A DNA stretch of 44,383 nucleotides. It comes from Paludibacter sp. GTDB lineage: Bacteria > Bacteroidota > Bacteroidia > Bacteroidales > Paludibacteraceae. Made by a program: the position numbers and the translations under genes. The notes beneath the pieces were generated by a model. The model did not search any database and had not been told where the DNA came from. It was given only the letters and a program-made list of their open reading frames with translations. Below are positions 16,067-44,383 of this stretch, in pieces. How positions within the stretch are numbered: position 1 is the first letter of the stretch; each line of letters starts with the position of its first letter. The DNA lies in the NCBI GenBank assembly GCA_017882285.1, contig JADGPS010000017.1, positions 1 to 44,383 of the forward strand. The letters are read 5' to 3'.

Positions 16067-16075
16067 TTATTTATG

Positions 16076-16148: not shown

Positions 16149-16181
16149 ATCAAACTTTGTTAGCTGCTTTTTGATAACGAG

Positions 16182-16254
16182 TGATCTAGCTGGGGCTCGA
16201 ACCCAGGACCCCATCCTTAAAAGGGATGTGCTCTACCAGCTGAGCTACTAAATC
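16182..16254 (-). tRNA. tRNA-Lys (anticodon TTT), first of the pair
   Basis: Same 73-nt sequence as the copy at 16076-16148, 33 bp away, with all stems intact. It is nearer the -7 box at 16273-16280, so both are probably made as one transcript. Confidence 0.95.
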
Positions 16255-27345: not shown

Positions 27346-27434
27346 TTTTTTTATTCTTTTACTGGCGCGATTAAGCTTGTTTTCAGCTATTTTGTATATT
27401 CATTAACGGGTAATTCCATTTGTCAATTAGCTTG

Positions 27435-27442
27435 CAAAAGTA
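27435..27442 (-). promoter_or_regulatory. -7 box for pheS
   Basis: The minus strand reads TACTTTTG, matching TAnnTTTG, 90 bp ahead of the pheS start. No attenuator could be made out in the leader. Confidence 0.5.
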
Positions 27443-27536
27443 ATCATTTTTTACCAAAATAAGATCTTCAGGTTGCAAAAATGAAATGTGTTCAAAAAAA
27501 AAGGATTACAAATCGTTTTTTATCTGAATTTTACCT

Positions 27537-27544
27537 TATATTTG
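27537..27544 (+). promoter_or_regulatory. -7 box for the DUF2461 gene
   Basis: TATATTTG lies 22 bp ahead of the ATG at 27567, giving a leader of about 15 nt. Confidence 0.65.
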
Positions 27545-27566
27545 TCAAACGCTAATTTATTTCAGT

Positions 27567-28241
27567 ATGAGCATTGATAATATCCTCCAATTCCTGAAAG
27601 AATTGAAAATCAACAATAACCGTGAATGGTTTGCCGAAAACAAAGCTAGGTATGATCAGGTTCGAATAGAATTTGAAAAAATCAGTTCCGATTTAATAGT
27701 GGAAATATCCAAATTTGATGAAGATATCAAACATGTTGAAGTAAAAGATTGCGTTTTCCGTATTTATCGGGATATTCGCTTTTCGCTTGATAAAACACCC
27801 TATAAGACACATTTTGGTGTGTTTATAGCTGCTGCAGGTGGAAGAAAAAGTCAACATGCGGGATATTATTTACATCTTGATCCTACAGGTTCTTTCGTAT
27901 CCATGGGTGTTTGGTGTCCCAATCCGAATATGCTGAAAGCGTTACGACAAAGTGTGTATGATAATATTGAAGAACTGAATGAAATCAGAAAAAACCCGGA
28001 GTTCTCGCAGTATTTTACTGATTTTTTCGAAGAAGATAAACTCAAATCTGTGCCAAGCGGTTTTCCAAAAGATTTTCCCGATGCCGAATTACTTAAACTG
28101 AAACATTATCTGGTTGATTATCAATTGAAAGATTCAGATTTTAAATCGGAAAATTTTATTACTCATATTGCCGGAATAATGAAATGTGCGTATCCTTTTA
28201 ATCGATTTTTGAATTATACGATCGACGAAACAAATTCATAA
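27567..28241 (+). CDS. DUF2461 family protein (TIGR02453)
   Basis: The 224-residue protein has the family pattern: an N-terminal FLKELKINNNREWFAENKARYD, VFRIYRDIRFSLDKTPYKTHFGVFI in the middle, then YYLHLDP and GVWCPNP. Length is normal. The biochemical role of the family is not known. It is soluble, with no signal peptide or membrane segment. The next gene on the same strand starts 50 bp after the stop, so the two may be cotranscribed. Confidence 0.85.
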   Translation: MSIDNILQFLKELKINNNREWFAENKARYDQVRIEFEKISSDLIVEISKFDEDIKHVEVKDCVFRIYRDIRFSLDKTPYKTHFGVFIAAAGGRKSQHAGYYLHLDPTGSFVSMGVWCPNPNMLKALRQSVYDNIEELNEIRKNPEFSQYFTDFFEEDKLKSVPSGFPKDFPDAELLKLKHYLVDYQLKDSDFKSENFITHIAGIMKCAYPFNRFLNYTIDETNS

Positions 28242-28291
28242 TTCATAATTAATAATTAAACTGTTTACTGATAACTTTTCACTGAAAATAT

Positions 28292-28738
28292 ATGATTTTA
28301 GACACGTTGGGGAATGCCGGATTGTACGAATCAGTCCATCCCCGTTTCAAACAGGCTTTCGATTTTTTACGTAACTCAGATTTAGATTCACTTCCGTTTG
28401 GAAAAATTGAATTAGATGGTTCTAATTTGTTTGTCAGTGTGGTTGATATCATTGGAAAAACGGCTGAAGTAGCACGCATGGAGACTCACAATCGCTATAT
28501 TGATATTCAAGTTCCCGTTACGGGCACTGAAACTATGGGTTGGATTGCAGTGAATAACCTAAAAGAAGTAACTCAACCATACGATGCCGAGAAAGATATA
28601 GCTTTTTTTGGAGATAAAGCATCTAATTTTTTATCGGTTCAGCCGTATGAATTCGTGATATTTTTCCCTGAAGATGCGCATCAACCCGGAATTTCCACAG
28701 GACAACATAAAAAAGTGATTGTAAAAGTGTTGGTGTAA
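28292..28738 (+). CDS. YhcH/YjgK/YiaL family (cupin-like) protein
   Basis: The 148-residue protein has the family's conserved points: ETHNRYIDIQVPVTGTETMGW, a central acidic stretch and FFPEDAHQPGI with the likely metal-binding His residues. Family members include NanQ/YhcH (sialic acid related), TabA and YiaL, thought to bind small sugars or sugar acids. No sialic acid genes are near, so the substrate is unknown. Confidence 0.88.
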   Translation: MILDTLGNAGLYESVHPRFKQAFDFLRNSDLDSLPFGKIELDGSNLFVSVVDIIGKTAEVARMETHNRYIDIQVPVTGTETMGWIAVNNLKEVTQPYDAEKDIAFFGDKASNFLSVQPYEFVIFFPEDAHQPGISTGQHKKVIVKVLV

Positions 28739-28811
28739 TTTTCAGTTCTTTTGATGTTGAAATTCTATTGTTTTTGACTGAACTGTTATAAAAAAAATAA
28801 ATTTTTAGCGC

Positions 28812-30812
28812 ATGAAAGATCTATCTATTTTAAAATCCGATCCGTGGCTGGCACCTTTTGCCGGTGCAATCAGCGGACGTTACGAGTATTTTGAAAGTGT
28901 AGAGAAAAAATTGGTTCCCGAAGGTCAATCTTTATCAGGATTTGCTACCGGTTATCTATATTTTGGATTACATCGGTTGGCTGATGGTTGGATTTTCCGC
29001 GAATGGGCGCCCAATGCTACCGCCATTTTTATGATTGGTGATTTTAATAACTGGCAACGTCATCCCGATTATCAACTAAAGAAAATGCAAAACGGCATCT
29101 GGGAAGTTCGTTTGCCCGATTATGCCATTGCGCATTCTCAACTGTATAAATTATTGGTTGAATGGGAAGGTGGGAGTGGCGAAAGAATTCCGGCATGGGC
29201 ACGAAGAGTTGTTCAGGACGATACAACCAAAATTTTCAGTGCGCAGGTTTGGAGTCCTTTTCAGCCTTACAAGTTTAAAAACGCCAAATTTATACCAAAA
29301 ACGGATCCTTTGTTGATTTACGAATGCCATATCGGAATGTCAAGTTCCGAGGAGAAAGTATCAACCTACGAAGAGTTTCGCACAAGTGTATTGTCCCGTA
29401 TTTCACGCGCCGGTTATAACTGCATTCAAATCATGGCCATTCAGGAACATCCATATTACGGCTCGTTTGGCTATCATGTTTCAAGCTTTTTTGCCGCTTC
29501 TTCCCGTTTCGGTACGCCCGAAGAACTCAAACATTTAATTGACGATGCTCATGAGTTAGGAATTTCCGTTATTATGGATATCATTCATTCACATGCAGTT
29601 CGCAATGAGATAGAAGGATTGGGACGTTTCGACGGAACACCTTACCAATATTTTCATGGTGGCTCGCGTCGCGAACATCCGGCATGGGATTCGCTTTGTT
29701 TCGATTATGCAAAACCCTCCGTACTTCATTTTTTGCTTTCCAATTGCAAATTCTGGTTAGAAGAATATAAGTTTGACGGCTATCGGTTCGATGGCATAAC
29801 TTCCATGTTGTATCGCAGTCATGGGTTGGGCGAAGATTTCAACGGCTATGAATCTTATTACAATATGAATCAGGACGGTGATGCTATTTGTTACCTGACG
29901 TTGGCAAATAAATTGATACACGAAGTGAATCCGAATGCCATTACCATTGCTGAAGAAGTGAGCGGAATGCCCGGATTAGCAACTAAAGTAGAAGATGGTG
30001 GAATTGGTTTCGATTACCGCATGGCTATGGGAATCCCTGATTTCTGGATTAAAATGATCAAGGAAGTAAAAGACGAAAACTGGAAAGTAGGTCATATTTA
30101 CTGGGAATTGACCAATCGGCGTGCCGACGAAAAAACCATCAGCTATGCCGAAAGTCACGATCAGGCTTTGGTGGGCGATAAAACCATTATTTTTCGCCTG
30201 ATTGATGCCGAAATGTACTGGCACATGCAACGCGGCGATAATACCTTGACGGTCGACCGTGGTGTGGCATTGCACAAAATGATTCGACTTATCACGGCTA
30301 CCACTATTAATGGTGGGTACCTGAACTTTATGGGAAATGAATTCGGACATCCCGAATGGATTGATTTTCCGCGTGAAGGCAATGGTTGGTCGCATAAATA
30401 TGCCCGTCGTCAATGGGAGCTGGTTGATAATGAAAAGTATTTATATAATGCTCTGGGTGAATTTGACCGCGCCATGATAGCCCTGATAAATTCAGTTTCG
30501 GAATTTAACGAAACTCCTGTTCAGCAATTATGGAGCAAAGAGGATGATCAGGTGTTGGCTTATCAGCGAGGTGATTTGGTGTTTGTATTTAACTTCAATG
30601 GTTCAAAATCATTTACCGATTACGGCATTTTGGCTGATAAAGGAAGTTATAAAATTGTGCTTAATACCGACGAAAGCATTTTTGGAGGTTTTGACCTGAT
30701 TGATGAAAGTATTGACCATATTACTTTGCCCGATCCGACAGAAACTTCAGGCAAAGAATGGTTGAAACTCTATATCCCTGCACGTACGGCTTTTGTGTTG
30801 AAGAAACAATAG
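28812..30812 (+). CDS. glgB: 1,4-alpha-glucan branching enzyme, GH13 (eukaryotic-like type)
   Basis: The 666-residue protein has a CBM48-like N-terminus (REWAPNATAIFMIGDFNNW, 63-81) and a GH13 core: nucleophile Asp327 in GYRFDGIT, acid/base in AEEVSG (Glu381), and ESHDQ with Asp450. It makes alpha-1,6 branches in glycogen. The length and lack of a long N-terminal extension fit the eukaryotic-like branching enzymes common in Bacteroidota. Its last 189 bp (30624-30812, about 62 codons and stop) are repeated at 43794-43982 with five differences, on the far side of the sugar-utilisation locus. The gene itself is intact. Confidence 0.95.
   Translation: MKDLSILKSDPWLAPFAGAISGRYEYFESVEKKLVPEGQSLSGFATGYLYFGLHRLADGWIFREWAPNATAIFMIGDFNNWQRHPDYQLKKMQNGIWEVRLPDYAIAHSQLYKLLVEWEGGSGERIPAWARRVVQDDTTKIFSAQVWSPFQPYKFKNAKFIPKTDPLLIYECHIGMSSSEEKVSTYEEFRTSVLSRISRAGYNCIQIMAIQEHPYYGSFGYHVSSFFAASSRFGTPEELKHLIDDAHELGISVIMDIIHSHAVRNEIEGLGRFDGTPYQYFHGGSRREHPAWDSLCFDYAKPSVLHFLLSNCKFWLEEYKFDGYRFDGITSMLYRSHGLGEDFNGYESYYNMNQDGDAICYLTLANKLIHEVNPNAITIAEEVSGMPGLATKVEDGGIGFDYRMAMGIPDFWIKMIKEVKDENWKVGHIYWELTNRRADEKTISYAESHDQALVGDKTIIFRLIDAEMYWHMQRGDNTLTVDRGVALHKMIRLITATTINGGYLNFMGNEFGHPEWIDFPREGNGWSHKYARRQWELVDNEKYLYNALGEFDRAMIALINSVSEFNETPVQQLWSKEDDQVLAYQRGDLVFVFNFNGSKSFTDYGILADKGSYKIVLNTDESIFGGFDLIDESIDHITLPDPTETSGKEWLKLYIPARTAFVLKKQ
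30624..30812 (+). repeat. Direct repeat, left copy (3' end of glgB)
   Basis: 189 bp, ending exactly at the glgB stop codon, matches 43794-43982 in the same orientation without gaps and with five substitutions (184/189 identical). The two copies start 13,170 bp apart and enclose the polysaccharide utilisation locus. Confidence 0.95.
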
Positions 30813-30839
30813 GACGACTTCATCTAATTTATAATTGCG

Positions 30840-30878
30840 ATGCAGTTGATCATTTATATGATTGACTGCATTTATTTT
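30840..30878 (+). terminator. Terminator downstream of glgB
   Basis: ATGCAGTTGATCAT (30840-30853) pairs with ATGATTGACTGCAT (30858-30871) through a 4-nt loop with two G-T pairs, then TTATTTT. It lies outside the duplicated segment, so it came with or was created at the island junction. Confidence 0.8.
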
Positions 30879-30902
30879 AAATGTAATTTATCAGATTAAA
30901 TC

Positions 30903-33590
30903 TTATTCAATTTTTATCAATCGAACATAATCCAGCATTGCCTGGTTCACCTCGATATTCATATTCTCATTTTCAGGCATAAATTCCAGTTTCAGATGAT
31001 GGACTCCCTTTTTCAACCATACTCTCATGGAGTTACTGTATCCCCAGTTTGACCATTCACCTATACCACGTTGTGGGAAGATCTGGGCACCCAACCGAAC
31101 ATCGTCAACAAAGAGCGTCCGTATGGCACATTTGTTTTCTGTGTTCGTTGGTCCGTTTCCATTGGCATAGCACCAGTCAATGGCATATAATCCTTCTGCA
31201 GGAGCTTCAATGTCCATGCTGACGGTCCGGTTTATTGTCCGGCTGATTTCTACAAATCCATTACCCGAATAACCATGGTAGGGCAGGGTGGATGGTGTCA
31301 GGTATTTTTCAACTTCATAAACCTGAATGGTTGAATCGGGATATATCCTGACAGGTTCACTGGCAAAGGAAGCAATCCCGTTTTTATCAATGGCCTGTAC
31401 CTGAAACTCACCTGACTCACCTGATGGTATAGTATAAGAAGTAGCAGTCGTTTCTGCCCGTAGTTGTACGTTTTTCAGTATCCTGTAATTCGTTGCACCT
31501 TCAATAACTTTCCAAAGCAATTTCCCGTTCTCATAAATAGCTATTGGAGTTACCGGTGAAAATTCATTTTTAACCAGATGGATAGGCTGTTTATCCAATT
31601 CGTTATTGGCAAGTGTGATTTTTACAGTATGTTTACCTGTTAGGGCAGTAGATATAACAAACGTTTTTTGTACTTTCCCATCCAGTTCAAATGAAGCTAT
31701 TTTATTTCCATACCCGTTCATATCTATGTCAAGGTTGGCTTTGCGGTAGCGAAAATTATTCAGTCTCCTGTTAGCTGACATAATTTTAGGAACAAAAGGT
31801 TCAAACCTCAACCCGTTTTCTTCAAAGCGGATTCCGAAAATTACTTTGTGAATGATACTGATATTGCCCGACAGGCTCCATAACATATTGCTCGAATTGA
31901 TCTGTGTACCTGCCCAGTCACCATTATCTGCCACCATGTTTTCTTTGTTTGTCAGGAACATGGCAGCACCCCGGTAAATGGAGGCAATACTGTGGAGTAC
32001 ACTTTCTTCGTTTCCGGTTTTGGCTCCTGCCCATAGCCAGTAGGTTTGTACAAACGGCCACACGGCATTGTTGTGATATGGCGGAATATCCCCTATCTGA
32101 GGAAACACGCAGGGAATGCCATAATCAACTACCGGGACATTTTGTACCACTTCCTTTTGACGTGCTGCATCGGCTACGTCAAAAACCACACACAATGCTT
32201 CGCCCAGGGCTTCAGAACTCGGTGAAAGAATCTGGTAATTTCGTCCGTACAGGTATTGCCCGTAATATTTCTTTTCAGGGTTCCATAGCCGGGAATTGAT
32301 ACTTGATTTAAGCTCTTCTGCTAATTGGGTATATTTTTTACCGGTAAGTTTATCATTCATCAATTCGACCATGCTGCCTGCCACTTTCATTGCCTGGTAA
32401 TGGAGTGCATTAGTACCGAGGTTTTTGCTTTCAAAGATATCCGCAGGTTGCATCCAACACGGGTAAGTTTGTTCCCGCCAGTCAAGGAAGGATGATTCCC
32501 CTTTTACCAGACCTGTTTCGGTGTCATGATCGACCATGATATCATCTTCGATAGAGTTTTTGATAATCGGGTATACTTTTTTAAGCCAGTCCCGGTCACC
32601 GGTCACTTTATAGATTTCCCAGGCAGCCACCGCCCATATCATCCGGTCGGTGGAAGCTGGCCATGCACCACCTGTCCCTGTATCCTGAATGATGCGTCCG
32701 TTGGTATTTACTTTCCGCATCAGGCTGTTTTGAGATACTTTAGGCTGCATATACGCCATGGAGAGAATGATGCTGTAGCTCACGTCCCTGGTCCATACTC
32801 CGGGCCAGGATATTCCTGTGCGCAAGGTGCTGTCCTTTTCGATGGCTTTCTGCATTTCCTCTACCGACAAATTATAAATGGCTGATTCCAGGATATTGGG
32901 CGATTGGTATTGAGGAAAAGCCCCAATGTCTTTTATCAGTTTCCACGTTTTTAATTTAACGGCTTCTTCCTTTTGCGGGTTAAGTTTCAACACGACTTCA
33001 TAGATCCCATCCCCATCCGGATCGGTAAGCTCCAGATCTTTATGATAAGTCAGGTTATCAAAATTCCACACCATGGGAACTGTATTGCCGACTACATATA
33101 CACTTTTAAAGTCTGCTTTGTATAGTTTGGTGCCGTTGAAATTGGTATAATACCCGGACTTTTCAAACTGAGCAAGGACAGGACGCATATCGAGCCTTAT
33201 TTTCAACTGGGTATTTGGTTTTAAATAGGTATTGGCCGGTACAGGTTGTTTGTCTGTGTATTGTGTTCCAAAAGTGATGACAGGTGTTTCACAACTTTCC
33301 TTACTCAGGCATACAAATTCATGGTTTACTCCCGGAAGCATCTCATTATCCAGTCCGTTGATGGAGAACTTAAACGAAATACGCGGACTCTTAAATGCTG
33401 TCACCTGACTCTGGTAATCCGATTGCATTTCATTGGGTGACAAGGATGTGGCGGTAAAGTTTCCTTGAACAACATGATTGGTGAAAACACTGAAAGCAGG
33501 GGAAGAGTAAATTGGTTTGTTATTTTGTGCCGATAAAATAGTAGCTAATCCCAAAAACAGGATATTGAAATAAGATATTTTCTGTTTCAT
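30903..33590 (-). CDS. Secreted six-hairpin (alpha/alpha)6 glycoside hydrolase with C-terminal CBM-like domain
   Basis: The 895-residue protein has a signal peptide (cleavage near SAQ), an N-terminal beta-rich region including a DPDGDGIYEVVLKLNP strand pattern, and an (alpha/alpha)6 core marked by WPGVWTRDVSYS, GGAWPASTDRMIWAVAAWEIY, SFLDWREQTYPCWM and NNAVWPFVQTYWLWAGA. The last about 150 residues look like a CBM6/35-type module. Aromatic-acid clusters of this kind line the active site in six-hairpin glycosidases such as GH15 and GH63. I cannot name the family. Context suggests an alpha-glucosidase or glucodextranase-like role. It has its own -7 box (33616-33623). The ATG at 33590 is preferred over 33605 on leader length and signal peptide. 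Confidence 0.75.
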   Translation of the reverse strand: MKQKISYFNILFLGLATILSAQNNKPIYSSPAFSVFTNHVVQGNFTATSLSPNEMQSDYQSQVTAFKSPRISFKFSINGLDNEMLPGVNHEFVCLSKESCETPVITFGTQYTDKQPVPANTYLKPNTQLKIRLDMRPVLAQFEKSGYYTNFNGTKLYKADFKSVYVVGNTVPMVWNFDNLTYHKDLELTDPDGDGIYEVVLKLNPQKEEAVKLKTWKLIKDIGAFPQYQSPNILESAIYNLSVEEMQKAIEKDSTLRTGISWPGVWTRDVSYSIILSMAYMQPKVSQNSLMRKVNTNGRIIQDTGTGGAWPASTDRMIWAVAAWEIYKVTGDRDWLKKVYPIIKNSIEDDIMVDHDTETGLVKGESSFLDWREQTYPCWMQPADIFESKNLGTNALHYQAMKVAGSMVELMNDKLTGKKYTQLAEELKSSINSRLWNPEKKYYGQYLYGRNYQILSPSSEALGEALCVVFDVADAARQKEVVQNVPVVDYGIPCVFPQIGDIPPYHNNAVWPFVQTYWLWAGAKTGNEESVLHSIASIYRGAAMFLTNKENMVADNGDWAGTQINSSNMLWSLSGNISIIHKVIFGIRFEENGLRFEPFVPKIMSANRRLNNFRYRKANLDIDMNGYGNKIASFELDGKVQKTFVISTALTGKHTVKITLANNELDKQPIHLVKNEFSPVTPIAIYENGKLLWKVIEGATNYRILKNVQLRAETTATSYTIPSGESGEFQVQAIDKNGIASFASEPVRIYPDSTIQVYEVEKYLTPSTLPYHGYSGNGFVEISRTINRTVSMDIEAPAEGLYAIDWCYANGNGPTNTENKCAIRTLFVDDVRLGAQIFPQRGIGEWSNWGYSNSMRVWLKKGVHHLKLEFMPENENMNIEVNQAMLDYVRLIKIE

Positions 33591-33615
33591 ATTGTTTACT
33601 TTCAATTCTTCATTG

Positions 33616-33623
33616 CAAAGTTA
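33616..33623 (-). promoter_or_regulatory. -7 box for the six-hairpin hydrolase gene
   Basis: The minus strand reads TAACTTTG, 25 bp ahead of the ATG at 33590, suggesting this gene is expressed separately from the susC-to-GH66 genes. Confidence 0.6.
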
Positions 33624-33704
33624 GTGTAAATAATTAGCAATTTTTAAGAACTCGTGTTATTTGATTCTTTATTTTCCTGACAATTAACAAACATATTATT
33701 TAGA

Positions 33705-35474
33705 TTAATATTCAACCACAACCATATCCCAATACCTTAACTCAGGAAGTATAAAACTGACTTTATTATTCAGTTGGGTAAAATTCAAACTTCGTGAAGT
33801 TCCACCAACAAAGTCGGGTGTGGCGACCCATATTTTCCTGACTGTTTTATCTGTTGTCAACACCATTTTTGCATCCTTTATCAATGCCGGCATAACTTGA
33901 ATTCCGTCATTATCCCTCCAAAGTTGAGTCGTTGAATTTGAAAAGTTTATAAAGTGTATGACTTGTGAATTATCGTATTTCTTACCAAATATTCCCACAT
34001 ACCCTGAAGATGCCGGCCAAACAGCAACGGACATTTTAGTATCGGCAGAAGAAATGTCAACAGTATTAAATGTACCCCCATCACGCAATAAATTTTGATA
34101 AGCCACCAGAAAATCATAATAATTAACCAACGATTTTTTCAGATCATCTTTCATGGTCAGATAATTATTCGGAAAATATTCTTTACAAAGCATGTGTTCT
34201 CCCAATTCAAGATGGTCGCCACCGAAAGCAAAAATAACAGCATTGGCCATTAATACTGATGGGGTGTTGAAATATCCCGGACTATTAGCCTTATCATAAT
34301 TCATGTATGCAGCAAGTACTGTATTTTTAGAGTTATTGCTTAATGCATTATTTTGTTTGATGATATTTACCAAATCATTATAACTGTCTGAAGGACTCCA
34401 AACCTCTGAATATAAAAAATCGCTTGTTGACGTGGCAATCCCCTGTTGACCATACTGAGCAACAGCATTCATAACATTATATTTATCAGGTATTGCCGTC
34501 TTAATAATATCAATATACGATTTAAACGATGCAGCCAGATTCATTGATGTACCATCATATTTGAAACGTAGGCCTCTGTCACCCAACTGATCCATATGAT
34601 ATCCATCGAAGGCAAGGAACTTATATACATTTTTAGTCTCTGCAATCATATAATTTTGCCAACCGGTATTTGATGGGTCTAACAGATATAAATTACTGAT
34701 AAAAGGTGATGGAAGTGAAAGAATATCGCGATTAGTATGCGTATTGTCATTATAAATGTACCATTCTTTATTAACTCCATCAACATCGGCATTATTCCAT
34801 GCTCCATAGACGAGGTCATAGAACATGGTTTTCATGTTGTAATTATGGGCAACTTTGATATATTTTTCAATAGTATTAAAATAAATATCCCTGTTCCCGA
34901 TATCTTTCCAGTTAGTAGCAGGTGTCAAGCCGGTTAAAGGCAGTGGTTTGTGATGTTTATTTTGCCAGTCGTAGAATTGTAAACCGTTAATATGATATCT
35001 GTTCAAATTATTGACAACAGCATTTATTGAATCATCAGATATTTGATCGAATTTAGATAGAAAACCGTAACGGGGAAACTTTTTCCAATCAGACGACACA
35101 TCAATTCCGATAGTTGCATAAATAGTTTCAACATTGTTGACAGATGAGTATACTTCAGCAATATATCCGCGATAATCATCAGCAGGTGTTTGCCAATTCC
35201 AGGTTGAAGCAGTCACCGGAAGATCCGAAAGTACGGTGTTCAGAAACTTATACCTGACTTTGACCGAAACCGAAAGTTTGGCATAGTCTATTGTAAAATT
35301 GACAGCTTCCCCAGGTTTATAGCTTACTTTATCGGTAGAGATTGATACATTGTTATAATTCGGAGTGACAACATTTGCCGGAGCATCAGGGATGATTTCC
35401 GGCTCATTTGCTTTACAACTATAGGTTGCGAAGATCAGAAATAATGCTGTTAAATATATTATTTTGGTTTTCAT
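33705..35474 (-). CDS. GH66 dextranase-type surface lipoprotein
   Basis: The 589-residue protein has a lipoprotein signal with Cys20 (FATYSC) followed by an acidic stretch (KANEPEI) that resembles a surface export signal. The catalytic core has RYGFLSKFD, HINGLQFYDWQNKHHKPL, a likely nucleophile Asp295 in DGYHMDQLG and acid/base Glu357 in YSEVWSPSDSY; spacing fits the GH66 enzymes (dextranases and cycloisomaltooligosaccharide glucanotransferases). GH66 acts on alpha-1,6-glucan. No long inserted CBM35 of the glucanotransferase type was seen, so endo-dextranase is more likely. The start at 35474 gives a clean signal peptide. It follows the SusE-like gene across a hairpin at 35551-35585. Confidence 0.88.
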   Translation of the reverse strand: MKTKIIYLTALFLIFATYSCKANEPEIIPDAPANVVTPNYNNVSISTDKVSYKPGEAVNFTIDYAKLSVSVKVRYKFLNTVLSDLPVTASTWNWQTPADDYRGYIAEVYSSVNNVETIYATIGIDVSSDWKKFPRYGFLSKFDQISDDSINAVVNNLNRYHINGLQFYDWQNKHHKPLPLTGLTPATNWKDIGNRDIYFNTIEKYIKVAHNYNMKTMFYDLVYGAWNNADVDGVNKEWYIYNDNTHTNRDILSLPSPFISNLYLLDPSNTGWQNYMIAETKNVYKFLAFDGYHMDQLGDRGLRFKYDGTSMNLAASFKSYIDIIKTAIPDKYNVMNAVAQYGQQGIATSTSDFLYSEVWSPSDSYNDLVNIIKQNNALSNNSKNTVLAAYMNYDKANSPGYFNTPSVLMANAVIFAFGGDHLELGEHMLCKEYFPNNYLTMKDDLKKSLVNYYDFLVAYQNLLRDGGTFNTVDISSADTKMSVAVWPASSGYVGIFGKKYDNSQVIHFINFSNSTTQLWRDNDGIQVMPALIKDAKMVLTTDKTVRKIWVATPDFVGGTSRSLNFTQLNNKVSFILPELRYWDMVVVEY

Positions 35475-35550
35475 TAGCGTAATTGATTCTTTTATCAAAC
35501 AACTTTAGAATTTGAAGTGTTTTTGATAGTTTTAAAATCACAAATTATTA

Positions 35551-35585
35551 AGGGGTTGCTCTGTGTTTTTTACAGAGCAACCCCT
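35551..35585 (-). terminator. Intercistronic hairpin between SusE-like and GH66 genes
   Basis: AGGGGTTGCTCTGT (35551-35564) pairs perfectly with ACAGAGCAACCCCT (35572-35585) around a 7-nt loop. The minus-strand side continues with TTAATAATTTG, a weak T-run, so it may be a partial terminator or an RNA-stabilising element that lowers GH66 expression relative to susC/D/E. Confidence 0.75.
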
Positions 35586-35601
35586 ATCTGAAACTAAACA
35601 A

Positions 35602-37047
35602 TTATTGTTTTACAAAGCTTATTGAGAGCGTTTCAATATTGACCGTAATTAAATAATTTCCGGCTGATGTTATACTCCATTTATTGTCGTCTGCCTGGCC
35701 TCCGATATGTCGGTACATGTGTGTATTATCAGTTCTCTCATACATATCCTGACCCCAATCGGAATTCTGGTTTACAGGGAATTTAAAATCACCGGCAACC
35801 ATAGGTCCATTGTAAATAAATATGCAGCCATCGGTGGCATCTTCAGTCATTTGAATGGCACTGGTAATTGTCCAGCCAATAGGTGTTGCATCACCAACCA
35901 TATAGAGTTTCTCCCGATAAATACTAATCGAATTGTTCAGCAAATTAAGTGTGATCGTGTAATAACCTTTCTTGGCTATCGTCCATTTATTATCATCAGC
36001 ATCACCACCGTGATGCAGGTACATATGTGTATCATCCACTTTCATAAACATATCCTGTCCCCAATCGGAATTCAGGTTTACCGGGAATTTAAAATCGCCG
36101 GCTTTCATAACGCCTGTATAAGTGAAAATGAACGGATTTGTAGTGTTTTGAACCAATGGGGTTGAATGTGAAATATCCCAACCGTTTGGTGACGCATCAC
36201 CTACCATATAAATGGTGCTATAAGGCGGTAAGTCAGCTTTGTTGATCGATACGGTTAAATCCAAGAGACTGACTGTTACTTTGTAAACAGCTGCCTCAGT
36301 TATATTGAACAAATTGTCGGCTTGTCCTGCATCAGTTCGTAAAATAAGTTGAGAATCACTGTTGCCTTTATTATACGATGGAAGAATTTGTCCCAAGGTA
36401 GTAATAAACTTTAAAGAACCTGTATTTAATGAACCCGTATATACAAAAACTGTTGGATCATTCTGAGGAGTTAATGCCAGTGCATTATTTACATCTGTTC
36501 CTTTTGGAGATGCACTTCCAAACAAATACAATGTTTTGCTTACCGGTTTATAGCTTGTCACCGAAATGGTTACAATATTTGAAATGTCATTAACTACCGG
36601 ATCAGAATAAACTGTAGCGATAACCCGTGCTTCTAAATCTGTAACTGAACCTGGAATAACACCCCATTTTGTCAACAAACTGTCATTTAATGCGCCCACA
36701 TTAAAACTGTTGATATATATTCCTTTTCCCATATTCAGGCTGATAGGTTTAGAAAAATTATTTCCTTTTTTATCAACCTGAAGATTATAGGATATCGAAG
36801 ATCCTGTACCATGATTTGTACCCGTTGTCCATGTCAAATCAACGGCTCCATTATTAATATCTTTCTGTTTTAAGACCAAACTTGTTTTTGAAACAGATAG
36901 TGCAAGTGGTCCTGATTTTACAATATTGTCAGGCAATTCTTCCTGACATGCTGAGAATAAAAAGACAGCCAAAATTGATATCAGCATTGTTCCTGTATAT
37001 TGTTGGAGCTTTTCTTTTAAAATACTCCAAAGATTTAGTTTTTCCAT
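35602..37047 (-). CDS. SusE/SusF-like outer-membrane glycan-binding lipoprotein
   Basis: The 481-residue protein has a lipobox ending at Cys34 (FSACQEELPD, with an acidic export-type signal), an N-terminal SusE-type beta domain (about 45-165), then three carbohydrate-binding beta-sandwich modules (about 172-270, 278-378, 380-481). The last two are clearly duplicated: each has YMVGDA.P.GW, AGDFKFPVN.NSDWGQDM and the DDNKW motif with aromatic binding residues. It should bind glucan at the cell surface for the SusC/D pair. It sits in the usual place after susD, 35 bp downstream. Confidence 0.88.
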   Translation of the reverse strand: MEKLNLWSILKEKLQQYTGTMLISILAVFLFSACQEELPDNIVKSGPLALSVSKTSLVLKQKDINNGAVDLTWTTGTNHGTGSSISYNLQVDKKGNNFSKPISLNMGKGIYINSFNVGALNDSLLTKWGVIPGSVTDLEARVIATVYSDPVVNDISNIVTISVTSYKPVSKTLYLFGSASPKGTDVNNALALTPQNDPTVFVYTGSLNTGSLKFITTLGQILPSYNKGNSDSQLILRTDAGQADNLFNITEAAVYKVTVSLLDLTVSINKADLPPYSTIYMVGDASPNGWDISHSTPLVQNTTNPFIFTYTGVMKAGDFKFPVNLNSDWGQDMFMKVDDTHMYLHHGGDADDNKWTIAKKGYYTITLNLLNNSISIYREKLYMVGDATPIGWTITSAIQMTEDATDGCIFIYNGPMVAGDFKFPVNQNSDWGQDMYERTDNTHMYRHIGGQADDNKWSITSAGNYLITVNIETLSISFVKQ

Positions 37048-37082
37048 ATTGTTTTTTCGATTATTTTATAGTTAAACAAAGA

Positions 37083-38588
37083 TTAATATCCTGTATTTTG
37101 TGTTAGATTTGGATTGGCATCCCGCTCTTTTTGGGGAACAGGGAATATCAAATATTTCGAACTCATATTTAATCTTCCTATTGAATGTAGAAAATCAATA
37201 CCATATTGTCCTTTATTTATCCGTATCAAATCAAACCAGCGTTGTCCTTCAAAGGCCATTTCCATTCGGCGTTCGTGCAGTATTTTTTCCCGTAGGGTAG
37301 TCTGATCCAGTCCGGTTACATTCAGTAACCCCGCTCTGACCCGCACTTTATTTAATGTGGCATTTGGATCAGTAGCCAGTAATTGTGCATCTGTGGTTCT
37401 GCCCAGTTCATTCAAAGCTTCTGCTTTCATTAGCAGAATGTCAGCATATCGAAGTACCGGAAAACCTGCAGGGACGTTTTCTGGACTACTGGCAATTGAT
37501 ATGGGGACTAAGAATTTCCGTAAATTAAATCCTGTCGTTGAAAAAGTTTTCTGATAGTTTATACCATCAAACTTCGGGCAACCTTCATAAAGAACTGTTA
37601 CGTCTTTACGCATATCTCCGGCTTCGTATGAATTTACAAATTCCTGTGTGGGTTGATCCCAACCATATGCTCCTGCAACCATATTCGAAGCGCGGGGCCC
37701 GGTAAATACGCTTACCCACGACGATTGATTTTCATTTGCCCAAAAACTATATCCGCCATTGGCTGTATATTGAATTTCAAAAAGGGATTCTTTTGTATTC
37801 TTGTTTGTCCAATCAAAATTATCTGCATAATTCGCATTCAGCGAATAACCCAATGCTGTTACCGAATCACAAAGATTTACAACATGTTGCCAGTTATTCC
37901 CCTGGCATAAATATACTTTTGCCAGCATCCCGATAGCTGATCCTTTTGAGGCGCGGCCTACATCGGCTCCTGAATATTGTTCACGGGGAGGCAACAGGGT
38001 AATGGCATTATTCAAATCCGATATAATCTGACTGTTCACTGTTGCCTTTGAAGTCCTGAAAGGACGAAGATCACCTCCCGGTTCAACAGGTTGAAGTACC
38101 AATGGTACATCTCCAAAAAATTCTGTCAGAATGAAATAGTAGTGTGCACGAAGGAAATATGCTTCTCCTAAAACCCTGTTTTTGACGTTCTCACTGATAG
38201 TCATTCCAGGAACTTTCTGTAGAATTATATTGCAACGTAAAATTCCGGGCCATGGTCCCCGCCACATATCAAGTACACCCTGATTGTCGGTTGAAGTCAC
38301 AAAGTTTTCTTCATCCTGCGTTTCAATGCCATCGGTACCACCTCCGCCACCGGTAATACTGTTACCGGCCATAATGTCGGTTGTCCACATGCGCATATTA
38401 TATAATTTAGGCCATTGCAACGGTTGATAAGCTCCATTAATAGCTCCAATGGCATCAGCTTCGGTCTGAAAGAAATTTGATGTATTAATTGTATCTTCAG
38501 GAGCTTTGTTCAGAAAATCGCTGCTGCATGCTGTGATAAATAACGCCATGACAGCTATAGTGAAATATTTATTGAGTTTCATATTCAT
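37083..38588 (-). CDS. susD: SusD/RagB-type glycan-binding outer-membrane lipoprotein
   Basis: The 501-residue protein has a lipobox (FITACSSDFLNKAPED), the SusD N-terminal signature NTSNFFQTEADAIGAINGAY, and the C-terminal block LREKILHERRMEMAFEGQRWFDLIR, ending VPQKERDANPNLTQNTGY. It forms the lid on the SusC transporter and helps deliver oligosaccharide. It lies 14 bp after the susC stop, the standard pairing. The first Met (38588) or the third codon (38582) may be the true start. The symbol names the family, not proof of starch use. Confidence 0.94.
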   Translation of the reverse strand: MNMKLNKYFTIAVMALFITACSSDFLNKAPEDTINTSNFFQTEADAIGAINGAYQPLQWPKLYNMRMWTTDIMAGNSITGGGGGTDGIETQDEENFVTSTDNQGVLDMWRGPWPGILRCNIILQKVPGMTISENVKNRVLGEAYFLRAHYYFILTEFFGDVPLVLQPVEPGGDLRPFRTSKATVNSQIISDLNNAITLLPPREQYSGADVGRASKGSAIGMLAKVYLCQGNNWQHVVNLCDSVTALGYSLNANYADNFDWTNKNTKESLFEIQYTANGGYSFWANENQSSWVSVFTGPRASNMVAGAYGWDQPTQEFVNSYEAGDMRKDVTVLYEGCPKFDGINYQKTFSTTGFNLRKFLVPISIASSPENVPAGFPVLRYADILLMKAEALNELGRTTDAQLLATDPNATLNKVRVRAGLLNVTGLDQTTLREKILHERRMEMAFEGQRWFDLIRINKGQYGIDFLHSIGRLNMSSKYLIFPVPQKERDANPNLTQNTGY

Positions 38589-38602
38589 TTTATTTTTTGT
38601 GA

Positions 38603-41600
38603 TTAAATACCAAGGTTAACGCCAATACTATAAGTCCGTGTAACAGGATAAACATTGTTATCAATACCATTTGTTCCCACTTCAGGGTCAATTCCACTGT
38701 ATTTAGTTAATGTAAACAGGTTTTTAGCAGAAAGGTAAAATCTGGCAGTCGAAATATGAATCTTTTTCATCACACTCACAGGAATTGTATAACCCAGAGT
38801 TACATTCTGAATTCTCAGATACGATCCATCTTCAATATATCTGTCCGATTGTCTGGTGTTTTTATTTGGATCGTTAAACACGGCTCTTGGCATGCTATTA
38901 CTTGTCCCTTCGCCTGTCCATCTGTTTAAGGTTGCTATGGTTTGGTTCTGTGCTATGGACATGGCTTCATTCCAAAGTCTGTTTGCATTGAAAATCTTGT
39001 TTCCTGCCACTCCTTGCAAAAATATACTCAAATCAAAACCTCTGTATGCAAATGTATTGTTCATGGCGAAAATGAAAGTTGGATTTGGACTTCCCAGAAA
39101 CGTACGGTCCTTATCGTTGATTACCCCATCATTATTCAAATCTTTGAATCGGATATCACCAGGCGAAGTACGGCTGTTTGGATTACTTCCCGGAACCTGG
39201 GAAGCATGGCTATCAACCTCTGATTGATTCTGAAAAATTCCATCGGTCACAAATCCGTAAAACTCATTGATTGGAACGCCCGCCTGTAATAATGCCAGGT
39301 TGTAATTCAACCCAATGCTTCCCGTTGACATGGGTACCGTATCGTTTATGCTTACTACTTTATTCTGGTTATAGGACAGGTTAAAGGAAGTATTCCAGGT
39401 GAACTTTCCGGTTAAATTTTTAGTATTTATCGTAATCTCGATCCCTTTATTTTCCATATTCCCTGCATTAATCGACGGAACTAAGATATCAGAGTACCCG
39501 GTTGAAACAGGTACTGACATTGGTACCAACATTTTATCGGTCTGTTTTAGATAGGCATCTACGGTAACATCAACCCTCTGATTGAATAAGGTGGCATCAA
39601 AACCGATATTGGATTGTTTTTGACCTTCCCATTGGATGAATGGATTCGGCATAACGGTTGGTGCTATTGCAGAAACTAATTTATCATTGAAATTGTATTT
39701 TACGGTATTAAGGGAAGATGCGAAAGAATAATTCCCTATATTCTGATTTCCTGTAACACCATATCCTGCACGGATTTTCAGGTCATTTACAAACGTAACG
39801 TTTTTAAAGAAGTCTTCCTGTGAAAGACGCCATGCAATAGATGCAGAAGGGAATAATCCGTATTTGTTTCCCGAACCGAAGCGTGAAGAACCATCCCGTC
39901 GAATAGTTGCTGTAACCAGATACTTATCATTGTATGCATAATTTACACGACCCATCAATGAAAATAATGATGAACTATAGGTTGACCCATCAATTGTTGG
40001 TTGATCGAGACCATTTCTCAACTGTTGTGTTACATTGCTTTGAAAATCTTTTAATGATGCATTAATAAAGTTATTGCGGTTTTCCTGTGCACTGGTACCG
40101 GCCATCACTCCAATACGATGCTTGTCGAAGGTATGTTCATACGTAATTGTATTATCCCATAACCAGGTCAGGTTTTTATTATATTGTTGCCACAAATACG
40201 AACTTGAATTAACGTTGGAATCCCAGATATAATTAGGTGCCCATGTGCGTGAATCCCAAAAATTGGCCTGTAATCCGAAGGTTGATTTTAATTTCAGGTC
40301 TTTTATTATCTCCAGTTCGCCAAAGACAGAACCAATCAAATTATAGCCATTGGTTGCCTGGTCAACTGTTTTAGCCAATCCAATCGGATTTACGATATCA
40401 CCTGCATTTATTGGCAGTCCAATCGGACCTGAATAGTTCCCGTTTGCACGATAAATCGGTTGAGTAGGTAAAGCCAGCATGGCATTTTGAATGCTGTAAT
40501 TTCCGCTTGTCTTGATATCGTGATTAAGAGTCAGGCTATTTCCGAAGTGCAGGTATGAAGTAATTTTGTTATCCGTATTCAACTGGAAAGTGTATCGTTT
40601 GTATCCGGTATTGATAACAATTCCTTCTTGATCAAAATAATTGCCGGATACATAGAATTTGTTTTTTTCATTTCCTCCGGAATAATCTAATGAGTAATTT
40701 TGCATGGGTGCAGTATTGAAAAGAGCTCCTAGCCAATCAGTTCCTGTGCCAAGACTTGTCGGGTCCACGAATTCAGGATTCAGAGCTACTCCTGCGTTGT
40801 TCAGCATGTCATTATGTAATGAGGCAAATTGGGATGCATTAAGCATCTTGATCATGTTGGTTGGATTTTGCAATCCATATGAATAATTGAAATTCAGCCG
40901 GGAGTTACCAGTGCTTTCACCGTGCTTTGTAGTAATAATAACAACACCATTTGCACCACGGGCTCCGTAAATAGCACAGGCAGATGCATCTTTCAGTACC
41001 TGAATAGATTCAATATCATTCATATTCAATTGATTCAAACCTCCATCGATAGGGAGACCATCGATTACTACCAACGGATCATTATTATTGATAGTCCCTG
41101 ATCCACGAATACGGAATGAGGCATCAGTACCCGGAACACCCGATGAAATCACCTGTACACCGGCTGCACGTCCCTGCATGGCATCGCTCACACTGGGAAC
41201 AGGCAATGATTTCAAATCGCTGCTTTTAATGGTGGCAACCGATCCTGTCAAGTCTTTCTTGCGTTGGGTTCCATACCCTACGACCACCACCTCATCTAAT
41301 GTTTCTGTTCCTTCTTTCAATTCAATTCGAAGGTTTTGTTCATTGGATGTTATTTCGCTCGAATTATAACCAACATACGAAAAAATAAAGACCGGGTTTT
41401 TTACAGATGCTACCGGAATAGTAAATTTTCCGTTTATATCTGTCATTGTGCCGGTGGTTGTTCCTTTAATCAGGATACTTACACCGATCAGAGGTTCTCC
41501 CTTTACATCGACGACAATGCCGGAGACAGTTTTACCGGTAGTTTGAGCAACTACATTGGGCAGGGCAAATAGCATGCAACAGAAAAAGAGCATGCCAATT

Positions 41601-41626
41601 AGACTTCTTTTCAAATTGACCATCAT
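38603..41626 (-). CDS. susC: SusC/RagA-type TonB-dependent transporter
   Basis: The 1007-residue protein has a signal peptide ending near VVAQ, a CarboxypepD-like N-terminal domain (TVSGIVVDVKGEPLIGVSILIKG), the TonB-box region EVVVVGYGTQRKKDLTGSVA, a plug domain (MQGRAAGVQV, IRGSGTINNNDPLVVIDG) and a 22-strand barrel ending in YPVTRTYSIGVNLGI. It imports oligosaccharides across the outer membrane with energy from TonB. Starts at 41683, 41626 or 41623 are possible; 41626 gives a normal signal peptide and lies about 100 bp after the -7 box at 41730-41737. Confidence 0.95.
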   Translation of the reverse strand: MMVNLKRSLIGMLFFCCMLFALPNVVAQTTGKTVSGIVVDVKGEPLIGVSILIKGTTTGTMTDINGKFTIPVASVKNPVFIFSYVGYNSSEITSNEQNLRIELKEGTETLDEVVVVGYGTQRKKDLTGSVATIKSSDLKSLPVPSVSDAMQGRAAGVQVISSGVPGTDASFRIRGSGTINNNDPLVVIDGLPIDGGLNQLNMNDIESIQVLKDASACAIYGARGANGVVIITTKHGESTGNSRLNFNYSYGLQNPTNMIKMLNASQFASLHNDMLNNAGVALNPEFVDPTSLGTGTDWLGALFNTAPMQNYSLDYSGGNEKNKFYVSGNYFDQEGIVINTGYKRYTFQLNTDNKITSYLHFGNSLTLNHDIKTSGNYSIQNAMLALPTQPIYRANGNYSGPIGLPINAGDIVNPIGLAKTVDQATNGYNLIGSVFGELEIIKDLKLKSTFGLQANFWDSRTWAPNYIWDSNVNSSSYLWQQYNKNLTWLWDNTITYEHTFDKHRIGVMAGTSAQENRNNFINASLKDFQSNVTQQLRNGLDQPTIDGSTYSSSLFSLMGRVNYAYNDKYLVTATIRRDGSSRFGSGNKYGLFPSASIAWRLSQEDFFKNVTFVNDLKIRAGYGVTGNQNIGNYSFASSLNTVKYNFNDKLVSAIAPTVMPNPFIQWEGQKQSNIGFDATLFNQRVDVTVDAYLKQTDKMLVPMSVPVSTGYSDILVPSINAGNMENKGIEITINTKNLTGKFTWNTSFNLSYNQNKVVSINDTVPMSTGSIGLNYNLALLQAGVPINEFYGFVTDGIFQNQSEVDSHASQVPGSNPNSRTSPGDIRFKDLNNDGVINDKDRTFLGSPNPTFIFAMNNTFAYRGFDLSIFLQGVAGNKIFNANRLWNEAMSIAQNQTIATLNRWTGEGTSNSMPRAVFNDPNKNTRQSDRYIEDGSYLRIQNVTLGYTIPVSVMKKIHISTARFYLSAKNLFTLTKYSGIDPEVGTNGIDNNVYPVTRTYSIGVNLGI

Positions 41627-41729
41627 TTTGTTATTTAAGGTTACTATAAATTCTTGTTGTACGAAAAACGTTTGTTCAAACACTTAAATGATTCTAAGTT
41701 TTTAATTGAAAATTCGACTTTCGACGATG

Positions 41730-41737
41730 CAAATATA
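41730..41737 (-). promoter_or_regulatory. -7 box for the susC-susD-susE-GH66 transcript
   Basis: The minus strand reads TATATTTG, about 104 bp ahead of the chosen susC start. It is the likely target of the SusR-like regulator. The rest of the 243-bp gap holds only the susR terminator. Confidence 0.6.
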
Positions 41738-41867
41738 TATGCTTTCATCACACCCTGTTTTCATTGAAATTAAAATGTAGTCAGAATGACAGACCATTAG
41801 CATTATACCTATGGATAACAAACAGATAGAACTTTACAAATTCAAAAAAAAGTAGTGCTTTTAGAGT

Positions 41868-41909
41868 AAAAAAAGAGGTCTTCAGGCTTATTTTAACCCT
41901 GAAGACCTC
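41868..41909 (-). terminator. Terminator of the SusR-like gene
   Basis: On the minus strand GAGGTCTTCAGG pairs perfectly with CCTGAAGACCTC (41909-41898 and 41886-41875) and is followed by TTTTTTT. It starts 18 bp after the stop, so susR is not cotranscribed with susC. Confidence 0.88.
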
Positions 41910-41926
41910 ATCTAATAGTATGTTTT

Positions 41927-43573
41927 TTATTTTGTATTTGTTCCAATCCGCATAACATTTGATTCAAACTCATCACGCGGTCCTGCAGATTTGTTTCTGA
42001 GTTTCGTTCTGTAATTGTAAATGGTGGATAAAGAATAACGTAGAAAATGCGATATTTTTACACTGTCGGTAATTCCCAGACGAATCAAAGCAAATATCCG
42101 TAATACTGTGTTGAGCAGTTCTCCCTGTTTCAGTTGTGTTTCCTCATTATCAATCAATAAACGGGTAAAGTCTTCAACAAAGGTTGGAAAAAGCTGAAGA
42201 AAAGTACTGTCGAAGTTCGTATAAAACTCTTTTAGCTCATCCTCTATAAACTGTTTCGATTTGATGGCATGCAATAAATCATCTATTTTTCCGGCTGCAG
42301 CGGTTTTGTTGAGCAAACGCCGGTAATCATCCAACTTATCAATATAAGCAGAGCACTGATCCATATACCTGCCAATATATTCTTCTTTAATCAGATTGGC
42401 TTCCTGTAATGTATCGTTCGTGTCTTTCAGTTGATAGTTGATGGCCGACAATTCATGATTCAGGGTGTTTAATTGGTCGTTGGCTGTGCTTAGTTTTTTT
42501 CGTGCTATTGCTAATTTTTTCATTTGCCTGTACACGAAAAATACAGCTATCATAAGCAAGAAGGAAAGAATGCTAATGCTGATAAGTGAGATTAACATCA
42601 ATCGTTGGTGCGATTCGGTTTGATGTTGATAAGCTTTATCAATAATCGGCACCATTTGGGAAATTTCAAAAGTTCGCAAACGGGCATTACAAAACAAAGC
42701 ATCATCAAGCGAACGTCTAATGTATTTATACGCTCTGTCTACATCTCCATCTTCATACAACGAAAATGCCAGCAATCTCAACGATATATATTCTTTTGTT
42801 GCCGATTGTAAATCGTTAATAGACGAAACTGCCAGCCATTTTTTTTCTAAGTCCCTTTCGTGTTTACCATGATAGGCTAACGCTATACTATAGGCAATAA
42901 TGGCCCGGTCATGTATACTCTCTTTGATGGTTGGAAAATAATCCAATAACAGTTTAAGTGCTTCATCGTACTGCTTGTTGACTATCAGTTGATCCGATTT
43001 TACCATGACATGCGTTCCTGAACCCGGTGGATTAGTGACTAACAATGAATCACGGTATGCGTCTGTTATTTCCTGATATTGTTTTTTTTCCTGACTCGTC
43101 ATAGTGTAGTCCGCCATAAAACCATAAACCGTCCTGTAAATGTGGAAATAATAAGCTTTTAAGTCGGGGTAATCCCTGACATTTACGACGTTCAGAATAT
43201 CCATGCTTTCCTTATACATTCCGGTAATTCCCATAATGGAAGCCAGATTTAATTTGACTTCTGTCAGATCACGTTTATTATTCAGTCTTTCGGCAATTTG
43301 AAGTTTTTTTTGGGCATAAACAAGTGCTGAATCCGATTTATATAGTTTGTACTCATCATATAGTTGTCCGCAAATAACATAGTGTTGCTGATCGGAAATT
43401 GCCATTTTCAGCAAATCTTTCAGTTTATTCAGCTTCTCCTCTTTCAGGTTCGAGTATACCTGGTAATTTTCAACAGTTTTGTCCAATACATGTAATAATG
43501 AATCCATTTCACTTTTTCCAAATAAGAATAGAGGGAACAGTGAACAAATTGAAATAACAAACCATCTTTTCAT
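41927..43573 (-). CDS. SusR-like membrane regulator (TPR-type sensor, TM segment, C-terminal HTH)
   Basis: The 548-residue protein has an N-terminal signal/hydrophobic segment (about 5-18), a helical TPR-like region (about 60-300) expected outside the inner membrane, one membrane segment (about 326-348, [21 protein letters not shown]), a coiled coil (about 350-400), and a DUF6377-like C-terminus ending in a LuxR-like helix-turn-helix (about 485-528, [43 protein letters not shown]). This is the layout of SusR, which senses alpha-glucan oligosaccharide and activates the sus operon. It is encoded divergently in role but on the same strand, upstream of susC, with its own promoter and terminator. 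Confidence 0.85.
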
Positions 43574-43595
43574 TAACGAGAAATTTTATTTCTGC

Positions 43596-43603
43596 AAATA
43601 TAT
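43596..43603 (-). promoter_or_regulatory. -7 box for the SusR-like gene
   Basis: The minus strand reads TATATTTG, 22 bp ahead of the start at 43573. Confidence 0.6.
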
Positions 43604-43716
43604 GAGAATATTTTTAGTTTATTGTATCAATGTGAAGATATTTACCAATTTAAAAATCTACAAATGATTAAAAAAAGAATTTTCATCAAGAATTATTACA
43701 ATTTTAAAATTAGAAA

Positions 43717-43742
43717 GAGGATGTCTTGAGTGAGACATCCTC
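43717..43742 (-). terminator. Hairpin at the right edge of the locus
   Basis: GAGGATGTCT (43717-43726) pairs perfectly with AGACATCCTC (43733-43742). On the minus strand it is followed by TTTCTAATTTT, so it would stop transcripts entering the locus from the right. It lies 52 bp before the duplicated glgB end. Confidence 0.7.
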
Positions 43743-43793
43743 AATTCTTCCGGATATACTCATTATTTGTACAAATCTTCGAACACGTTGTTG

Positions 43794-43982
43794 GGCATTT
43801 TGGCTGATAAAGGAAGTTATAAAATTGTGCTCAATACCGACGAAAGCGTTTTTGGAGGTTTTGACCTGATTGATGAAAGTATCGACCATATCACTTTGCC
43901 CGATCCGAAAGAAACTTCAGGCAAAGAATGGTTGAAACTCTATATCCCTGCACGTACGGCTTTTGTGTTGAAGAAACAATAG
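43794..43982 (+). pseudogene. Duplicated 3' end of glgB (direct repeat, right copy)
   Basis: These 189 bp match 30624-30812 (184/189 identical, no gaps) and end at the same stop codon; the flanks then differ completely on both sides. The five differences against glgB are three silent changes plus Ile to Val and Thr to Lys, more like drift in a working gene than decay of a fragment. An ATG at 43767 opens a 71-codon frame through it, but no promoter or start region supports translation. Read as the displaced or donor 3' end of glgB left when the utilisation locus was inserted. Confidence 0.93.
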
Positions 43983-44048
43983 AATTAAGAGCTAAGAATC
44001 AAGAACCATGAAGAATTCCCGGCAGTGATAGTTGGGAGTACAAGAGTC

Positions 44049-44100
44049 AAAACATAAAACCTCAAAGAGCTGTAAGGCCTTTGAAGTTTTGTGTTTTAGG
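44049..44100 (+). terminator. Terminator downstream of the duplicated glgB end
   Basis: A 19-bp imperfect stem joins 44049-44067 with 44079-44097 (two mismatch or wobble positions) and ends in a T-rich tail. It may be the original glgB terminator, now 13 kb from the intact gene. Confidence 0.75.
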
Positions 44101-44111
44101 AACCATCCTAA

Positions 44112-44327
44112 TTATCTATAGAAATTTTCCATGTCTGCCCCATCAAAATCGTAAAAAAATTGTGCCAGTTTATTTGTAACGCTTTCTGCAAATTTTTCCC
44201 CTTTTTCAGCACTGGCTGCCTTGGGGTTTCCTATTCCGGTATCGACGGTAACTTTAGTCCAGTTTCGTGGAATCCATGCTTGTTTATGGCTGTAGTTTAA
44301 ATATGCGTTGTAATTAATGTTTGGTAT
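44112..44327 (-). pseudogene. C-terminal remnant of a creatininase-family protein
   Basis: The minus-strand frame encodes about 71 residues with the C-terminal pattern of creatininase-family amidohydrolases: AWIPRNWTKVTVDTGIGNP, KAASAEKGEKFAE, then VTNKLAQFFYDFDG to a TAA stop. An in-frame TAG lies just upstream (44328-44330), and no start codon or metal-binding N-terminal part is visible. Either the gene is broken here or a frameshift separates it from sequence beyond the window. Too short to be functional as seen. Confidence 0.65.
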
Positions 44328-44383
44328 CTATCATTTATCAATCTATACCTATTTAAAGAGAATATATCTTCTGTAGAACCGTT

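Follow-up and report, generated by a model that had tools for sequence, protein, structure and literature searches.

A predicted dextran locus that has long been linked to glgB elsewhere in the genus was probably acquired by a chromosome that lacked it, through one crossover in the 3' end of glgB and most likely by way of a circular molecule. The window analyzed here is the whole of contig C121 (44,383 bases) from a 143-contig, 3.18-Mb draft genome (G000), the only genome found for its species. By glgB, its nearest named relatives are Paludibacter and Bacteroidales metagenome assemblies, and the comparison set consisted of 48 genus genomes, G000 among them.

The recipient would have been a chromosome of the locus-free type, in which glgB faces genes for a creatininase and RsmD, and the incoming piece would have carried the end of a near-identical glgB, six locus genes and the tail of the next gene. 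This piece would have entered through a single homologous crossover within the 3' end of glgB, and the likeliest form of the incoming DNA would be an end-joined fragment, that is, a circle of about 13.17 kb. The circle is favored because its integration by one crossover would produce a complete glgB followed by the locus and then a second, truncated glgB end ahead of the native downstream genes. The observed parts of this explanation are the repeat of the glgB end, the native context on the right, a left junction common to relatives and an abrupt new joint on the right; the direction of transfer, the circle and the donor are what we infer. An earlier, sequence-only reading of this DNA had proposed entry by recombination through glgB 3' homology, which fits; the locus does lie between glgB and its native downstream neighbors.

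Movement of sugar loci between Bacteroidota without mobile elements has mostly been inferred from mosaic genomes, according to the part of PMC8845570 used here. A locus with its entry scar, together with empty-site and donor-type arrangements in relatives, provides a direct case of one-sided core-gene recombination, and the partial-gene scar offers a signature for screening other genomes. The event itself is of a known kind, and this is a new case of it with an unusually clear scar.

The repeat and the locus between its copies

The features of the region are as follows.

28812..30812, plus strand: glgB, intact 1,4-alpha-glucan branching enzyme, 666 aa
30624..30812, plus strand: left repeat copy, the 3' end of the intact glgB, 189 bp
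30813..30902: glgB-locus spacer with the hairpin 30839-30872 inside, homologous to the spacers of G043 and G019, not that of G048
30903..33605, minus strand: glycoside hydrolase with Bac_rhamnosid6H, MGH1-like and GDE_C matches
33705..35498, minus strand: GH66 endo-dextranase (NCBIfam EndoDexBT3087, 817 bits, cutoff 730)
35602..37047, minus strand: SusE/F-like surface glycan-binding protein
37083..38588, minus strand: SusD homologue (Pfam)
38603..41683, minus strand: SusC homologue, TonB-dependent transporter (NCBIfam cutoff passed)
41927..43573, minus strand: SusR-family regulator, DUF6377 (NCBIfam SusR_regulator, 624 bits, cutoff 480)
43717..43742, minus strand: terminator-like hairpin
43763..43793, minus strand: possible 3' end (last codons ...NNVFEDLYK stop) of a gene truncated at the right joint
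43793..43794: right joint, where glgB similarity starts abruptly
43794..43982, plus strand: right repeat copy, a glgB 3' fragment in native downstream context
44115..44287, minus strand: creatininase-family gene, C-terminal part, interrupted by an insertion sequence
44288..44383, minus strand: insertion sequence end, IS1595-like according to a relic in G021 whose match is below the cutoff

The final 189 bp of glgB are found again at 43794-43982 as a direct repeat with 184 of 189 positions identical (97%) and a spacing of 13,170 bp, and a TAG stop terminates both copies, in agreement with the sequence-only reading. The two copies are the sole direct-repeat family of at least 30 nt in 27000-44383. 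A search of the whole window for direct repeats of at least 35 nt (seed 14) returned, besides this pair, only tandem tRNA-Lys genes (16075-16148 and 16181-16254, identical and on the minus strand) and a 77-bp unit in a tandem pair at 296-449 (92% identical). Also toward the start of the window, 908-1792 and 1770-4016 hold an ABC-transporter-domain protein with a peptidase S24/S26-like N-terminal match and, preceding it, a protein with a short PEPCK_ATP match.

The copies differ at 30662, 30678, 30713, 30722 and 30739, with three silent differences and two replacements (Ile/Val and Thr/Lys). At the Thr/Lys site the right copy encodes Lys, the residue present in 19 of 27 relatives, none of which has Thr; six of the 27 rows are out of register at the extreme end of glgB. 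The right fragment is not simply a decaying copy, because its Lys is the common state and Thr is absent from the relatives. The silent differences had been taken to point to another glgB allele; three of the five are indeed silent, which is a weak argument by itself, and the common Lys is a firmer one.

The final 73 bp are the same in both copies, whereas G043, G019 and G048 differ from them at 12, 12 and 13 positions, respectively, and end glgB with another stop codon. Therefore, in the immediate donor, which is unsampled, the end of glgB would have been almost the same as in G000, and the linked locus presumably entered the gene pool of the species at an earlier time. The identical 73-bp tails make it unlikely that a G043- or G048-type genome was the direct donor in the final step. 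The haplotype postulated for the donor, a near-identical glgB with the locus, was not seen in any genome compared.

Among the matches listed for the 48 genomes, a second high-identity glgB piece occurs only in G000, the two glgB rows in G019 being halves at contig ends. Among 118 stretches of at least 8 kb, some of which overlap or share a genome, four besides the window have direct repeats of at least 100 bp at 90% identity or more, and none of these repeats is a partial glgB copy. In L066 and L146 the repeats fall between genes or within short ORFs; in L098 the repeat is 760 bp long and lies inside two large ORFs of a dextran locus. In L142, from another Paludibacter, an ORF 3' end and a neighboring short ORF with a like C-terminus share a 190-bp, 95% identical direct repeat (18502-18691 and 20832-21021, 2.3 kb apart), probably as repeated C-terminal domains.

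Six open genes with matches to family models lie between the two glgB copies, all on the minus strand, in agreement with the complete SusR/C/D/E-GH66-hydrolase locus reported earlier. By these matches, they are predicted to form a dextran PUL of the Bacteroidota kind, with SusR, SusC, SusD and GH66. No match to GH31, GH97 or GH65 was found among the six genes, nor was an integrase or other mobility gene, as had also been noted before; the family searches covered these six minus-strand genes only. Foreign base composition is not evident either, with a G+C content in 2-kb windows of 0.36-0.41 over the locus versus 0.33-0.41 elsewhere in the window.

Hairpins with T-rich tails are present at both edges of the locus, at 30839-30872 on the plus strand and 43742-43717 on the minus strand, as had been stated, but the region has 10 such sites versus 10.3 expected from shuffling, and a terminator proposed at 44049 is not among the sites of the hairpin scan. 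For the gene possibly cut before 43793, no match was obtained by short tblastn or regular expression over the loci of relatives, and it was not found among the SusR neighbors of 15 genomes as far as their flanks reach.

Native context and the abrupt joint on the right

The right copy is followed by a spacer, the C-terminal part of the creatininase gene and the insertion-sequence end. The last 96 bases of the window (44288-44383) also terminate contigs C108, C37 and C35 of G000. The N-terminal part of the creatininase (residues 1-201) is found at 20053-20655 of contig C104, near a contig end and beside rsmD; G000 has no further match to the creatininase gene. An 8-bp duplication (44280-44287) is common to both creatininase flanks at the insertion sequence. 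Beyond rsmD, C104 continues with DUF3822, a RelA/SpoT gene and ribE, which is the gene order after glgB in relatives. The right copy thus sits in the native downstream context of glgB, the incoming locus is linked to the left end, and the joint at 43793/43794 is the new one. The alternative that the rsmD side was imported is less likely, given the single rsmD match in G000.

The multi-copy insertion sequence breaks the G000 assembly at the ends of C108, C37, C35 and C104, and its relic in G021 matches DDE_Tnp_IS1595 at 24.8 bits, below the cutoff of 27. Movement of the locus by an insertion sequence or as a composite transposon was rejected, given that there is one such end only, 305 bp past the right copy and with its own 8-bp duplication. 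A plain tandem duplication of the locus was also rejected, since the right copy is followed by native downstream sequence and not by the locus spacer.

An arrangement with homology on one side and an abrupt joint on the other is also what a linear piece would leave if it recombined through glgB at one end and was joined illegitimately to the glgB of the sister chromosome at the other (homology-facilitated illegitimate recombination, HFIR, or interchromatid bridging), the five differences having arisen later. One-sided joining has been described in transformable bacteria (PMC3240628, PMC5361080), and in pneumococcus sister chromosomes are described as becoming bridged (PMC3784515), as far as the parts of these papers used here go. 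This course of events has some standing, although it is unlikely. The HFIR products described are insertions with a deletion, and a decaying fragment should show more replacements, whereas in the right copy the frame is still open and the common Lys is retained.

The E. coli study of PMC3240628 ascribed its duplications to a circle. After conjugation, the PCR product of 56 of 60 exceptional integrants indicated partial duplication of the target gene end, and 109-950 bp were duplicated in the 14 integrants sequenced. The authors' account is one crossover of a circular molecule that is missing part of the homologous end; the remaining four clones were one-sided linear joinings with deletions. 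The outcome resembles that in G000 in that the target gene end is duplicated beside the inserted DNA. In E. coli, however, the substrate was a laboratory plasmid construct, while in G000 it is a natural 13-kb chromosomal locus for which the circle is postulated (PMC3240628, in the part of the text used here).

Empty sites and the shared left junction

A strong glgB match is present in 44 of the 48 genus genomes and a match of any kind in 47, the remainder being at paralogue level; rsmD is matched in 47 of 48. In a tree of five proteins from 28 genomes, not every genome having all five, G000 groups with G062, G059, G018, G022, G015, G045 and G016 (bootstrap 94), apart from G043, G019 and G048. 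When glgB is left out, support for the G000 clade is 55, and a grouping of G000 with the species that carry the locus at glgB is rejected (AU p 0.0007). Residues 1-600 of the glgB product alone give a poorly resolved tree that also rejects this grouping (p 0.018).

The sequence-only reading had called for a search for empty sites in related strains, and they were found: in six of the seven other species of the G000 clade, a single contig carries glgB facing rsmD, and the locus is not between them. The distance from glgB stop to rsmD stop is 126 bp in G062, 76 bp in G045, 115 bp in G015 and about 0.1 kb in G016, and the two genes are 823 bp apart in G018 and 2,653 bp apart in G059. In G022, the seventh species, the region is broken by contig ends. 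In a neighboring group, 8,747 bp separate glgB and rsmD in G005, and in G009 and G007 the genes are on different contigs. Overall, what lies between glgB and rsmD varies among these genomes.

G043 and G048 each have the same locus next to glgB on a single contig, oriented as in G000, and in G019 the hydrolase gene is beside glgB with the remaining locus spread over several other contigs; in all three, rsmD is on a different contig. Among 80 named glgB loci, many with flanks cut by contig ends, the locus was found within the examined flanks only in G043 and G048. Without gaps, the 90-bp spacer of G000 is identical to that of G043 at 55 of 90 positions and to that of G019 at 56 of 90, versus null means of 27.8 and 26.0, and these values were reached by none of 5000 dinucleotide shuffles in either comparison. 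Identity to the G048 spacer is 23/87, and local scores are at chance against the spacers of six species that lack the locus at glgB, as they are against the spacer to the right in G000. Since the junction is common to G019, G043 and G048 and its spacer is homologous in two of them, the left junction was not formed in G000 but arrived with the locus. The insertion had been placed exactly at the 3' end of glgB; rather, the copies cease to be similar after the stop codon because each is followed by a different spacer, and the new joint is that at 43793/43794.

A shared left junction might also mean that the locus has stood beside glgB since the ancestor of the genus, the right fragment being a later local duplication or homogenized by gene conversion. 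Old divergence of this kind would give the spacer identity of about 61% to G043 and G019 and the identity of about 70-81% between the locus proteins and those of G043 and G048. Such vertical descent is nevertheless improbable, given that the locus is absent between glgB and rsmD in the six clade species with both genes on one contig, and that the right fragment precedes native downstream genes.

An error of assembly is less probable still. The assembly is a draft, and a 73-bp identical end could confuse some assemblers, such that a path through it linked the chromosome with DNA from a circle or from a second strain. No repeat able to cause a misjoin was seen at the 43793/43794 joint, however, and both flanking orders occur separately in other species.

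Distribution of the locus and comparison with known systems

A GH66 gene of the locus type is present in 15 of the 48 genus genomes, in two of them at 46-50% identity. In 11 of these 15 it is not beside glgB, being on another contig in ten and in a genome without a strong glgB match in G052; in G059 the GH66 locus is beside a DnaK gene. The locus has moved about among species, and the earlier suggestion that a glucan locus makes metabolic sense beside a glycogen gene is not borne out by this distribution. Two plasmid records carry a GH66, at most 47% identical.

The evidence for a single common origin of the glgB-linked locus is mixed. In a tree of the locus core genes, the four glgB-linked loci are not united (AU p 0.038), but a grouping of G000 with G043 and G019 is not rejected (p 0.14). 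A tree of the hydrolase unites the four with a branch support of only 45.

The e14 element in icd of E. coli is an example of an element that restores its target gene. A mobile element that attached at the glgB 3' end and restored it, with its own or a borrowed integrase, had been offered before and would resemble such elements in the gene-end duplication with silent differences, but it is the least credible source of the repeat, with no integrase among the six genes of the insert, no second glgB end beside the glgB-adjacent loci of G043 and G048 (in the 3.5-4.9 kb beyond SusR), and the locus at other sites in other species.

Large chromosomal transfers with homologous recombination have been documented in B. 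fragilis (PMC5729914), and exchange of PULs by homologous recombination between core-gene "nodes" has been proposed for Bacteroides ovatus and B. xylanisolvens (PMC8845570), again as given in the parts of these papers used here. As in G000, a variable locus lies between core genes without mobility genes, and core-gene homology is proposed as the means. The exchange proposed there, however, would involve two flanking nodes, with no scar mentioned in that part of PMC8845570; G000 has the 189-bp partial duplication of glgB and an abrupt right joint, which do not correspond to a two-sided replacement. With regard to a donor-like feature in the flank, a tree of glgB residues 1-600 does not place G000 among the species with the locus at glgB, and the 3' copies are 97% alike, the donor allele being unsampled.

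Tentatively, and with rather little confidence, the interval after glgB could be regarded as a recombination node at which one-sided crossovers lead to the gain of whole glycan loci, and possibly to their loss via the 189-bp repeat, with partial-gene scars left behind. If that is true, a genome-wide reading of such scars could distinguish recipients from donors and allow PUL gains to be dated in uncultured Bacteroidota. In a narrow literature search, no publication was found on a glgB island with repeats, and none had Paludibacter and the utilization of dextran or other polysaccharides as its subject, judged by title and the start of the abstract.

The gene order SusR-SusC-SusD-SusE-GH66 is the same in the locus of G000 and in FjDexUL of F. 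johnsoniae. The GH31, GH97 and GH65 genes of FjDexUL, as described in the part of PMC10316084 used here, are absent from the G000 locus, which has a hydrolase of the Bac_rhamnosid6H/GDE_C type instead. The GH66 of G000 passes the NCBIfam cutoff for the BT3087 endo-dextranase of the B. thetaiotaomicron dextran locus.

Dextran loci elsewhere in the genus vary in content. A GH31 gene adjoins SusR in G048 (L059:15178-17580) and in G045 (L099:461-2866), where the window has only the possible gene tail. The glgB-adjacent hydrolase gene of G048 matches in two pieces (L059:2759-5017), and its GH66 stretch contains two stops. The dextran loci of G022 (L098, 8743-19014) and G018 (L097, 6830-15512) have extra large ORFs between GH66 and SusE.
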